Source: Cristatella mucedo (Eukaryota > Bryozoa > Phylactolaemata > Cristatellidae). Taken from it: a DNA stretch of 64,000 nt. The position numbers were made by a program, and so were the translations under genes. Below are positions 24,316-45,632 of the stretch, in pieces (positions within the stretch are counted from its first letter, which is position 1; every line of letters begins with the position of its first letter). The stretch spans positions 2,667,001-2,731,000 of the forward strand of contig WPIO01000008.1 in assembly GCA_009760855.2 (NCBI GenBank), read 5' to 3'. Below the pieces are notes generated by a model. The model saw only the letters and a program-made list of their open reading frames with translations, was not told the DNA's origin and searched no databases.

Positions 24316-24620
24316 TTAGGCAAAGCTCAACGACGGAACCGAGGCCGAAGCCTGCGACCTGCTGTCGGAGCCCGCGTCATTCGCTCCGTCTCGCATGTCG
24401 TCCAGAGAACGACGTATTTCGTCCACGCTTCGGCGGTAGTCGGCGTCGCGCCGCCGGTCCTCGGATCGTTTGAGCAGCACGATGAATATGACGACGAGAA
24501 CGACGAAAGTGACCACTATGAGCCAGCTGACGAGCACAACGACCACGACGTCGTTTGTGAGCACGGAGCCGCCGCCGCTGGCTTGCGTATCCGGCGGTTG
24601 AGCGCCGGACACGATGGCCG
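24316..24620 (-). CDS. Exon p: transmembrane helix and cytoplasmic tail, stop
   Basis: [20 protein letters not shown] then TND leads into a hydrophobic helix ([20 protein letters not shown] then IFIVLL). A stop-transfer KRSEDRRRD follows, then a charged tail with a likely short coiled coil ([14 protein letters not shown]) and a Ser-rich end ([13 protein letters not shown]). Stop TAA at 24,316-24,318. The acceptor TTTGCTTTATCAAG is preferred; two alternatives (24,674 and 24,692) keep the frame and would only lengthen the stalk. Confidence 0.78.
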
Positions 24621-45600: not shown

Positions 45601-45632
45601 TCGGCCTTCGCTGCCGTCCGGGTGGGCGCCGC
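24316..45632 (-). CDS. Large transmembrane gene: 2x IgGFc-binding module, collagen, EGF (16 exons)
   Basis: The joined exons (high to low) are 45632-44586, 42877-42761, 41894-41737, 41421-41277, 40520-40155, 37790-37590, 35133-34972, 34038-33470, 32561-32468, 31614-30914, 29504-29162, 28756-28583, 28417-28256, 28063-27938, 26451-26299 and 24620-24316. Every junction is GT-AG with matching phase, giving about 1,606 residues and one stop. The order is IgGFc-like module 1 (about 489 residues), module 2 (about 464), 123 Gly-X-Y triplets, EGF domains, transmembrane helix and tail. This implies a type I membrane protein with a large extracellular part, probably trimeric through the collagen region. 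The 5' exon with start and signal peptide is not found. The role is inferred as adhesion, matrix or recognition. Confidence 0.8.
24621..26298. other. Intron between exons o and p
   Basis: It holds GA-rich repeats at 25,700-26,095. An extra small EGF-type exon could be hidden, but I could not find one with fitting Cys spacing. Confidence 0.5.
25700..26095. repeat. GA-rich microsatellite cluster
   Basis: Long (GA)n runs with GGGAGA and GACA interruptions. The sense strand of the gene is CT-rich here. Confidence 0.95.
26299..26451 (-). CDS. Exon o: calcium-binding EGF-like domain 2 and Ala-rich linker
   Basis: [20 protein letters not shown] then [14 protein letters not shown] is an EGF_CA-like fold with an extra Cys (QCC) and a shortened last loop. 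It is followed by NSS and a run of Ala. Acceptor TTTCGTTCCAG, donor GTAGGC; phases 1 and 1. The Ala run is GC-repeat encoded and could vary in length. Confidence 0.86.
26520..26995. repeat. GA-rich microsatellite cluster
   Basis: (GA)n interleaved with GATA and GGGAGA, in the intron between exons n and o. Confidence 0.95.
27193..27228. repeat. (TA)n microsatellite
   Basis: About 18 TA units in the same intron. The following AT-rich DNA to about 27,720 shows no other feature. Confidence 0.9.
27938..28063 (-). CDS. Exon n: calcium-binding EGF domain 1
   Basis: [20 protein letters not shown] then [20 protein letters not shown] and CT: six Cys and the D-x-DE and Y/F-x-C spacing of EGF_CA domains (PF07645). 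It is a symmetrical 1-1 exon. Acceptor CGCCGCGTAG, donor GTGAGC. Confidence 0.9.
28256..28417 (-). CDS. Exon m: linker helix and partial EGF-like domain
   Basis: [20 protein letters not shown] is a likely amphipathic helix, followed by [20 protein letters not shown] and SANGSACE. The Cys pattern (C-x8-C-x-C-x11-C) looks like an EGF domain that lacks its first pair. Acceptor CGCGCTGCAG, donor GTAGCG; phases 1 and 1. Confidence 0.82.
28583..28756 (-). CDS. Exon l: collagen triple helix end and Leu run
   Basis: It has eighteen triplets ([20 protein letters not shown] ... GPPGAAGAL) and then four further Leu from a CTG run, where the triple helix stops. Acceptor TTTCGGCCGCAG, donor GTGAGT; phases 1 and 1. 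The hydrophobic Leu stretch directly after the helix could help chain association. Confidence 0.87.
29162..29504 (-). CDS. Exon k: collagen triple helix, part 2
   Basis: It continues the register exactly with 38 triplets ([20 protein letters not shown] ... [10 protein letters not shown]). Acceptor TCGCCTTTCGCAG, donor GTGAGC; phase 0 in, 1 out. At 343 bases it is not of the 54-base type of fibrillar collagen exons. Confidence 0.87.
29905..30170 (+). mobile_element. tRNA-derived SINE, near complete
   Basis: The head has A-box-like GTGGCGCACTGGCTAAGGC and B-box GGTTCGAATCC, then TGCAGTGGGCGATC. The body has GCAAGCGGTGATGATAGCCG, GTAAAGGCTTTTCTGTCGC and GAGGCTGTACAAATCAGC. The tail is (TATTTATT)n. 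It lies in the intron between exons j and k. It is the best reference for the SINE family. Confidence 0.8.
30172..30440 (+). mobile_element. LINE-B 3' fragment
   Basis: It corresponds to LINE-B from NDNYSP to the ACAGACGGAGATAC tail. It directly follows the SINE tail, inside the intron between exons j and k. Confidence 0.75.
30914..31614 (-). CDS. Exon j: Pro/Thr linker and collagen triple helix, part 1
   Basis: A linker ([20 protein letters not shown] then [12 protein letters not shown]) with one Cys is followed by 67 perfect Gly-X-Y triplets and no interruption. Thr occupies the Y position in about 21 triplets and Pro in about 8; charged residues are few. The linker Cys could form interchain bonds next to the helix. 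Acceptor CGCTTTGTAG, donor GTATGG; phase 1 in, 0 out. The antisense proline-rich frame over the same bases is a shadow. Confidence 0.88.
31887..31930. repeat. Perfect 20-bp inverted repeat, 4-nt loop
   Basis: Left arm CCCGAACGGAAGCGGGCGCT, loop AGCC, right arm its exact reverse complement. It lies in the intron between exons i and j and would form a very stable hairpin or cruciform. Confidence 0.9.
32468..32561 (-). CDS. Exon i: metal-binding [10 protein letters not shown] motif, module 2
   Basis: It reads [20 protein letters not shown] then [11 protein letters not shown], a paralogue of exon d with a more acidic loop. Acceptor TTCTTCTTGCAG, donor GTGAGC (a donor GTAGCA ten bases earlier would give the same phase). 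Phase 0 in, 1 out. Confidence 0.82.
33128..33316 (-). mobile_element. tRNA-derived SINE
   Basis: Minus strand: TGAGCCGCGGCGGCCCACTA, GGTCGAGGGTTCGAATCT, GATAGCCTTTTAAGGCTC, AGAGGCTGCTAAATCAGC, then an AT-rich tail. In the intron between exons h and i. Confidence 0.75.
33470..34038 (-). CDS. Exon h: IgGFc-binding-like domain, module 2, part 4
   Basis: This 569-base exon covers what module 1 splits over the end of exon a, exon b and exon c. It has [72 protein letters not shown] and LRLASINQ. Acceptor CGCTCGCGCAG, donor GTGCTC (weaker than the others); phase 1 in, 0 out. Confidence 0.85.
34305..34415. repeat. AT-rich simple sequence
   Basis: TAATA/TATA low-complexity stretch in the intron between exons g and h. 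Confidence 0.8.
34440..34700 (+). mobile_element. Diverged LINE-B 3' fragment
   Basis: It matches LINE-B (TACTCTCCTGCTGCCAACTG, CACTTTCTCTTTGCTGCGTG, TTTGTGGAGTTTCAGACGGA) with many changes. It ends close to exon g. Confidence 0.65.
34972..35133 (-). CDS. Exon g: IgGFc-binding-like domain, module 2, part 3
   Basis: It reads [20 protein letters not shown] ... [20 protein letters not shown] then YTVPIPG. It matches [20 protein letters not shown] ... [16 protein letters not shown] in exon a. Family members usually have a Cys pair around this region; both Cys of exon a (YCDLTG, NLCAM) are missing here. Acceptor CTCGCGTTGCAG, donor GTATGC; phases 1 and 1. Confidence 0.84.
35332..35426. repeat. 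19-bp minisatellite, 5 copies
   Basis: Unit TAGCAACGTAGTGGCATCG, varying at ATCG/GTCG/TTCG, in the intron between exons f and g. Confidence 0.9.
35545..35750 (-). mobile_element. tRNA-derived SINE
   Basis: Minus strand: tRNA-like head with a short internal duplication (two GTGAAAAG-type blocks), GGGTTCGCATCCTGCGGTGG, body AGCCGAAAAGGCTCTCGTGT and GAGGCTGTCGAATCAGCTAG. In the intron between exons f and g. Confidence 0.75.
36690..36754 (+). mobile_element. SINE head with microsatellite tail
   Basis: TCTTAGCTCATCAGGTGCTC and GGTCGTGGGTTCGAGTCCTG form the tRNA-like head. The SINE body is missing; after GTAGTGGGAGATCC it runs straight into (TA)n and (GA)n. The block TCCTGTAGTGGGAGATCC recurs just after the repeats (36,981-36,998). 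Confidence 0.65.
36755..36980. repeat. (TA)n then (GA)n compound microsatellite
   Basis: About 83 TA units to 36,921, then about 29 GA units. Flanked on both sides by an identical 18-bp block. Confidence 0.95.
37590..37790 (-). CDS. Exon f: IgGFc-binding-like domain, module 2, part 2
   Basis: It reads [20 protein letters not shown], then VVVTFPLN and [14 protein letters not shown]. It matches [20 protein letters not shown] in exon a. Acceptor TACGTTGCAG, donor GTCAGC; phases 1 and 1. The preceding intron holds the large CT and CTGCCTGTCT repeats. Confidence 0.84.
38026..38745. repeat. Compound repeat: CT, 10-bp unit, GTCT, CT
   Basis: (CT)n to about 38,160 and a degenerate section are followed by about 21 copies of the 10-bp unit CTGCCTGTCT (38,330-38,540). 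Then come GTCT tetramers (38,584-38,656) and (CT)n to about 38,736. It sits in the intron between exons e and f. Long Ser/Leu/Cys frames here are artefacts. Confidence 0.95.
38746..40154. other. Rest of the intron between exons e and f
   Basis: No gene supported. A 25-bp tandem duplication (GCTTCTTTTCGCCTCCTTCG) occurs at 39,010-39,060. Confidence 0.45.
40155..40520 (-). CDS. Exon e: IgGFc-binding-like domain, module 2, part 1
   Basis: It starts [20 protein letters not shown], then [20 protein letters not shown], and ends with [20 protein letters not shown] then LGSEYRA. These line up with exon a ([20 protein letters not shown]). Acceptor GTTTATTAG, donor GTGAGA; phases 1 and 1. Confidence 0.85.
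41277..41421 (-). CDS. Exon d: metal-binding [10 protein letters not shown] motif, module 1
   Basis: It reads [20 protein letters not shown] then IDEQTCTG. The GDGxDNxCxGxxDE signature resembles the MopE-type putative metal-binding motif (Pfam PF11617) and calcium-binding Asp/Asn loops. Acceptor TCTTTTTTGCAG, donor GTGCGT. It enters in phase 0 and ends in phase 1. Exon i is its duplicate. Confidence 0.82.
41737..41894 (-). CDS. Exon c: end of IgGFc-binding-like domain, module 1
   Basis: It reads [19 protein letters not shown] then [20 protein letters not shown], the usual closing strands of this family, in which a GTHxxRH and an xxYG motif recur. Acceptor GCCTTTGCAG, donor GTAAGC. It enters in phase 1 and leaves in phase 0. 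Confidence 0.85.
42177..42300. repeat. (TA)n and AT-rich simple sequence
   Basis: (TA)n to about 42,211, then TATATTA-type low complexity; intron between exons b and c. Confidence 0.9.
42761..42877 (-). CDS. Exon b: IgGFc-binding-like domain, module 1, small exon
   Basis: This 117-base exon was found by aligning module 1 with module 2, which predicted a missing piece. It reads [20 protein letters not shown] then [18 protein letters not shown]. It is the counterpart of [20 protein letters not shown] in exon h. The acceptor has a pyrimidine-rich lead (TTTCTGTTTACGACCAG) and the donor is GTAAGC. Both phases are 1, matching its neighbours. Confidence 0.82.
43795..43886. repeat. (CT)n microsatellite
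   Basis: About 45 CT units in the intron between exons a and b. Confidence 0.95.
44191..44480. repeat. (GA)n microsatellite with GACA-type tail
   Basis: Pure (GA)n to 44,261, then GACAGA/GAGACA variants. It lies in the same intron as the CT repeat but on the opposite strand, so the two could pair. Confidence 0.95.
44586..45632 (-). CDS. Exon a: IgGFc-binding-like domain, module 1
   Basis: First recognised exon, 349 codons without a stop. It begins [20 protein letters not shown], the typical GxEFVVAF start of the IgGFc-binding family. It continues with [50 protein letters not shown] and [16 protein letters not shown]. It aligns along its length with exons e to h of module 2, which carry three introns that are absent here. 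The acceptor chosen is TCGTGACAG at 45,633, because it gives phase 1 and a start parallel to module 2. An acceptor at 45,670 (CTCGCGCAG) is a second choice. The end is donor GTAGGC in phase 1. Confidence 0.82.

Follow-up and report, generated by a model that had tools for sequence, protein, structure and literature searches.

A predicted membrane-anchored collagenous protein with tandem IgGFc-binding modules in the bryozoan Cristatella mucedo

A predicted seventeen-exon gene on the minus strand

We analyzed a stretch of 64,000 nucleotides from the bryozoan Cristatella mucedo (GenBank assembly GCA_009760855.2, contig WPIO01000008.1, positions 2,667,001 to 2,731,000 of the forward strand), referred to here as the window; coordinates are positions within it. 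The minus strand carries a predicted gene whose product would combine two IgGFc-binding modules, a long collagen region, EGF domains and a single membrane helix. An earlier note on this DNA had described 16 minus-strand exons (45632-24316) with matching phases that encode 1,606 residues. Our rebuild, in which exons were selected from open frames and splice scores and then joined, was not blind, as the ends, the exon count and the domain order of that note were known beforehand, while its exon list was not. It returned the same ends, count and length (1,606 residues corresponds to 4,823 bases minus the stop codon and a first codon divided by the splice). With one further exon upstream, the complete model comprises 17 exons and 16 introns between 48043 and 24316, and its predicted protein has 1,636 residues.

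All of the introns are GT-AG (16/16), the phases agree at each of the 16 junctions, and there is a single stop, the terminal one. The earlier note had raised the possibility that the true splice sites would introduce stop codons; the rebuilt frame is open through to its end. Ranked against all sites in the window, the donor scores fall between percentiles 91.0 and 99.9 (16 donors, n = 1,260 GT) and the acceptor scores between 85.3 and 99.8 (16 acceptors, n = 1,669 AG), values that indicate consistency and are not an independent test, since the sites were chosen partly on those scores. The weakest points of the model are the acceptor of exon 15 (percentile 85.3) and the junction between exons 16 and 17. 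The latter is the least certain, with 38 donor/acceptor pairs that preserve the frame; the membrane helix and the tail are kept in all 38, but keeping them was a condition of the count. A single poly(A) hexamer is present at 23513, about 0.8 kb beyond the stop.

The guanine plus cytosine (GC) content at codon positions 1/2/3 is 0.65/0.59/0.81 for the whole coding sequence. Two local departures run against this bias: exon 1 (0.73/0.62/0.52) has no third-position peak, and neither do the three collagen exons, where glycine fixes the GC content at positions 1 and 2. A decaying pseudogene, to which the microsatellites and repeat pieces in the introns and the alanine and leucine runs near exon edges might point, is nevertheless hardly credible, given 17 open exons, canonical sites throughout, an unbroken series of 123 Gly-X-Y triplets and a codon-position bias in the coding sequence taken together. 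We regard the gene model as a well-supported prediction from the sequence, within which the junction between exons 16 and 17, exon 1 and the status of a single gene are predicted only.

The introns also hold long simple repeats (36755-36922, 38024-38756, 25682-26093 and 26531-26991), some of which are CT/AG-rich arrays and one of which consists of 84 perfect TA copies. Another sequence is repeated at 21023-22088, 30177-30438 and 57521-57975 (identity between copies 85-97%), and one of its copies falls within intron 11 of the gene.

Predicted head modules, collagen rod and membrane anchor

Exon 1 (47956..48043, amino acids (aa) 1-29), which lies outside the earlier coordinates, contains the start ATG followed by a hydrophobic signal-type sequence and ends at a strong phase-1 donor. 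The scan for hydrophobic starts was confined to the DNA upstream of exon 2, and there, at 45.6-58 kb of the minus strand, exon 1 was the sole candidate of its kind, relaxed thresholds included. As a control, 20 other loci of the same genome yielded one candidate of equal quality in 400,000 strand-bases with strict thresholds set just under exon 1's own scores, and 11 candidates at looser thresholds; therefore, about 0.03 and 0.3 candidates, respectively, are expected by chance in the 12.4 kb searched.

The first IgGFc-binding module is encoded for the larger part by exon 2 (44586..45632, aa 30-378), which has a Pfam match of its own, continues in exon 3 (42761..42877, aa 379-417) and ends in exon 4 (41737..41894, aa 418-470) at a phase-0 donor; exon 5 (41277..41421, aa 471-518) follows with a metal-binding-type loop. 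The second module starts in exon 6 (40155..40520, aa 519-640), continues through exons 7 (37590..37790, aa 641-707) and 8 (34972..35133, aa 708-761) and ends in exon 9 (33470..34038, aa 762-951), whose phase-0 donor occupies the alignment column of the exon 4 donor. A second loop of the same type is located in exon 10 (32468..32561, aa 952-982). The two modules had been named in the earlier note, which proposed a domain search of the joined protein; in that search, family PF17517 (IgGFc_binding, curated cut-off 25.6 bits) was matched twice at full length. Module 1 scored 175.3 bits (E 2e-51, positions 1-297 of 297), compared with 146.7 bits (positions 1-231) for the exon 2 frame alone, and module 2 scored 186.7 bits (E 7e-55, positions 1-297 of 297), compared with 80.6 bits (positions 133-297) for the exon 9 frame alone.

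An alignment of the two modules shows 173 identical residues in 462 positions (37%). Each module starts at a phase-1 intron. In both, a phase-0 intron directly before the metal-type loop falls at alignment column 444; their remaining introns differ. Because of this degree of identity and the phase-0 intron at the identical column, a tandem duplication is likely, and the modules are likely copies of a phase 1-1 block that subsequently gained or lost introns. The letters of the metal-binding loops proposed earlier do occur twice, but the suggested family, PF11617 (Cu-binding_MopE), reached only 15.5 bits in exon 5 and 19.2 bits in exon 10, below its cut-off of 27. The motif GDGVDN(N/D)C(N/D)G.IDE looks like a calcium-type DxDxDG loop, and its letters suggest that it may bind calcium. 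Comparison of the module with solved structures by sequence gave one chance-level row (E 0.32). The structure model of exon 2 was middling and had no firm match in a structure comparison, in which a CUB-like beta sandwich was considered; that of a bacterial module was poor, with a predicted local distance difference test (pLDDT) value of 54.6.

The collagen region begins in exon 11 (30914..31614), after a linker, continues in exon 12 (29162..29504) and ends in exon 13 (28583..28756). It consists of 123 Gly-X-Y triplets, the number counted in the earlier note, and is uninterrupted (aa 1016-1384). The longest run within one exon is 67 triplets, a length compared with which 300 first-order simulations of the same DNA never exceeded 6, and the exon 11 frame matched PF01391 with 91.9 bits (E 2.1e-26; cut-off 27.2). 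Among the 123 triplets, position X is Pro in 42 (34%), and position Y is Thr in 37 (30%), Ala in 36 and Pro in 12 (10%). A triple helix rises 0.286 nm per residue, and the rod would be about 105 nm long. The protein is probably a trimer, to judge from the Gly-X-Y repeat only. A leucine- or heptad-like spacing that can be read in the letters after the rod and in the tail could aid the registering of three chains.

The boundary between exons 10 and 11 is where the model could be divided into two neighboring genes, one encoding a secreted double-IgGFc protein (exons 1-10) and the other a separate membrane collagen (exons 11-17), which look joined by their phase. Many junctions of shuffled animal genes are in phase 1, so the matching phase is weak evidence for one gene, and if intron 10 is retained, the frame (32903-32364) continues for 35 codons past exon 10 and then reaches a stop. 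On the other hand, intron 10 has 853 bases, its donor and the acceptor of exon 11 rank at percentiles 99.0 and 97.1, and the exon 11 frame lacks an ATG ahead of its collagen. An ATG is likewise missing ahead of the membrane helix in the exon 17 frame; therefore, neither frame begins a gene within itself. We consider two genes an improbable arrangement.

Downstream of the rod, exon 14 (28256..28417) encodes a leucine-rich neck and a four-cysteine EGF-like piece, and exon 15 (27938..28063), the one with the weakest acceptor score, a calcium-binding EGF domain. Exon 16 (26299..26451), the 3' end of which is uncertain, contributes a second, atypical calcium-binding EGF domain and an alanine run. 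Exon 17 (24316..24620), with an uncertain 5' end, contains the membrane helix (~24549-24472), a tail of 51 residues and the stop (24318-24316). The EGF domains of the earlier note were recovered in joined exons 14-17 as two stretches matching EGF_CA (PF07645) with 46.4 bits (cut-off 27). The exon 15 frame alone scored 26.8 bits, just under the cut-off; the rise to 46.4 bits is no test of the join because exon 16 contributes the second copy. Hydropathy predicted one membrane helix, in agreement with the single helix expected, and the rebuilt model retains the whole proposed order of IgGFc modules, collagen, EGF domains and helix. Together, the signal peptide and this C-terminal helix predict an N-out (type I) surface protein. 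No signalling family was found over the Pfam cut-off in the C-terminal part. What the rebuild adds to the earlier account is the signal-peptide exon, the N-out orientation, the intron common to both modules and the clusters of paralogues described below.

Relatives in the genome and in bacteria

Searches of the C. mucedo genome covered an assembly of 572 Mb in 688 contigs and gave 36 PF17517 matches (on C266, C676, C56, C38, C222 and C55), many of them clustered, while 14 control genomes gave none. One cluster extends over about 450 kb (C222:6060018-6506581); where it was examined (L027-L030, L050), loops of the DGxDNDCDGxxDE type lie among its modules. At 6.058-6.078 and 6.095-6.115 Mb of C222, exon-sized module pieces occur together with loops such as GDGIDNDCNG, and module plus loop therefore seems to recur here as a unit. 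An IgGFc module is also found in one 832-aa open frame at C266:1620694-1621746 (L013/L014); it is 33% identical to module 2, and in tblastn none of the other loci examined is a closer paralogue. In the paralogue neighborhoods, no run of 7 Gly-X-Y triplets (20 loci of 10 kb) or of 6 (22 loci) and no EGF signature were detected; these neighborhoods represent part of the 36 matches, with C56 beyond 238 kb and C222:6.37-6.51 Mb left out. The run-of-7 and EGF patterns do detect the collagen and EGF exons of the window. The exon with the membrane helix and tail matched only itself in the genome (1 match; 9 candidates scored).

An expanded family of this kind would suit an innate immune receptor, with heads that bind microbes and a tail that signals. 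The 36 matches, many in clusters, are in line with this idea, and in a paper on a sponge repertoire the legend of the receptor figure includes IgGFc-binding among 'other domains' (PMC8242945). Against it stands the C-terminal part, where no signalling family exceeded the cut-off, and we view an immune receptor as possible though somewhat unlikely.

The origin of the modules has to be considered as well, since PF17517 is also present in bacteria. By tblastn, module 2 matched the start of a long Bernardetia frame with 26% identity over 82% of the module, and a bacterial protein has PF17517 at 262.5 bits together with EGF-like matches. Searches for relatives gave one plasmid and two genome contigs, one of these contigs through the metal loop only, and none among viral contigs or among phages. 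The bacterial loci L001 and L003 have the same module, and L001 keeps the DLTG, D-H-L, WG and DP positions; in contrast to the gene studied here, the frames examined contain no collagen. Three open frames with DGVDNDCN-like loops lie beside the bacterial IgGFc gene (L001 7088-13091), and module and loop therefore occur close together in a bacterium as well.

The composition of the rod bears on the same question. Thr at position Y is given as 31.6% for all bacteria, while Pro or hydroxyproline at Y amounts to 33.5% in human fibrillar and 42.2% in human non-fibrillar collagens (PMC8968730). The 30% of the gene is close to the bacterial value; its 34% Pro at X does not discriminate a bacterial from a human fibrillar type, as about 31% is reported for human fibrillar and Gram-positive collagens alike (PMC8968730). 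We compared it with other collagens of C. mucedo, using 18 stretches picked from 149 matches (150 scored of 1,510 candidates), a sample neither random nor complete that provided data for 17 stretches (L046 gave none). The fraction of Thr at Y was at least 0.20 in 5 of the 17 (L035, L036, L039, L041 and L043, with L039 a low-complexity repeat), 0.18 in L034 and 0.00-0.16 in the remaining 11. L032 and L038 (Pro at Y 0.29 and 0.37, Thr at Y 0.04) are of the ordinary animal collagen type. The pooled 1,460 triplets, which include the low-complexity L039 and L042, gave 0.18 Pro at X, 0.18 Pro at Y and 0.15 Thr at Y. Given those five stretches, a Thr-type collagen is at home in this genome. The likeness is imperfect, as only L043 of the five approaches the 0.34 Pro at X of the gene. 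The open frames that contain the Thr-rich stretches L035, L036, L041 and L043 range from about 700 to 1,753 aa in length, and other collagen matches lie in frames of up to 2,091 aa.

A bacterial origin of the collagen, as suggested by the 30% Thr at Y, is thus weakened: a Y position rich in Thr and Ala is poor evidence for it because some other collagens of the same genome share the trait. Riftia provides a known animal example of collagen with galactosylated Thr (cited in PMC10141479). To the broader proposal that head modules, loops and collagen were all acquired from bacteria we give little credence. It draws on the bacterial module with adjoining loops of the same kind, on the Thr content and on the scarcity of matching X Pro among the Thr-rich stretches, but it has to contend with introns throughout the gene, with a diverged family of paralogues and with the Thr-rich collagens at other loci, the low-complexity L039 included.

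Elsewhere in the window, an inverted pair of ~1.2 kb copies (7786-8988 and 15602-16751, 81% identical) has open frames; five of these were without a Pfam match at an E value of 0.01 or lower. Retroelement pieces are present at 752-3044, 57982-60741 and 61879-62562, with copies 87-91% identical and one pair 77% identical, and include a reverse transcriptase match (RVT_1, 4.6e-19) at 1220-1882.

A candidate stalked adhesion receptor

Each domain of the predicted protein is already known, and we read their order as that of a shuffled surface protein of animals, uncommon in its topology. The earlier note knew of no described protein with this order; we likewise found none in searches of an open-licence library, which does not prove absence. 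FCGBP and other animal IgGFc-binding proteins share a PF17517 module near the N terminus and a signal peptide. Vertebrate FCGBP carries VWD, C8 and TIL domains, for which no Pfam match was obtained at E up to 1 in aa 1-982, aa 1389-1636 and the exon 11 and 13 frames (the all-Gly-X-Y exon 12 was left out); collagen, EGF domains and a membrane helix are present here instead. In SR-A, MARCO and collectin-12, which are type II proteins, a collagen stalk lies between the membrane and a C-terminal recognition head. The stalk of our protein, by description, holds the same place between head and membrane, whereas its head is N-terminal and belongs to another family. A single membrane helix and a collagenous ectodomain are shared with collagens XIII, XXIII and XXV, the membrane-associated collagens with interrupted triple helices (MACITs). 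However, MACITs have a type II topology and interruptions in their helices (PMC4678570), in contrast to the predicted type I topology and unbroken Gly-X-Y run described here, which would place the protein outside this group. MACITs are further characterized by two conserved cysteines in a C-terminal motif. Bacterial collagen-like surface proteins also combine a non-collagen domain with a Thr-rich collagen rod at the surface (PMC8968730); proteins of the Scl and BclA types resemble the gene in this, but it differs from them by its introns, signal exon, EGF domains and membrane helix.

We propose, with a probability of roughly 0.6, that a single functional animal gene occupies the locus and encodes a collagenous, N-out (type I) surface protein anchored in the membrane, most likely a stalked adhesion receptor. 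The predicted signal peptide would direct the N terminus outward, where the two tandem IgGFc_binding modules, each followed by its short DxDxDG metal-type loop, would form the head. The Gly-X-Y triplets would wind three chains into the ~105 nm rod, and the two calcium-type EGF domains and the membrane helix would act as the anchor, with the tail predicted to lie inside the cell. Such a rod would carry three heads clear of the cell coat, and through avidity their weak binding to a ligand of the matrix, of mucus or of a microbial surface would become strong. The adhesive role is suggested by this anatomy and by relatives reported in secretions or present on bacterial proteins. A more specific version can be offered only tentatively: an N-out membrane collagen with its tandem modules at the tip of a Thr/Ala-rich triple helix stabilized by modified threonine and hydration more than by hydroxyproline. 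Such a protein would be a trimeric receptor of long reach, for adhesion or recognition, and would stem from an expanded module-plus-metal-loop family of this genome.

Alternatively, the ectodomain could be cut off and join an extracellular gel or fiber, the helix being a secretory anchor only. For an oyster and a starfish, mucus and adhesive footprints are reported to contain IgGFc-binding proteins (PMC6337334), which agrees with a shed or matrix-assembly protein, but the 51-residue tail has a heptad-like V..I...L..M pattern that, as read from the letters, hints at an intracellular role. We think shedding unlikely. If the stalked adhesion receptor proposed here is true, such a receptor would be buildable in the reverse orientation, type I with an IgGFc head, as opposed to the type II MACITs and scavenger receptors. 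The gene would also provide a cell-surface setting for a widespread, poorly understood module, where its ligand can be sought, and a natural case on which Thr-type triple helices of an animal could be tested.

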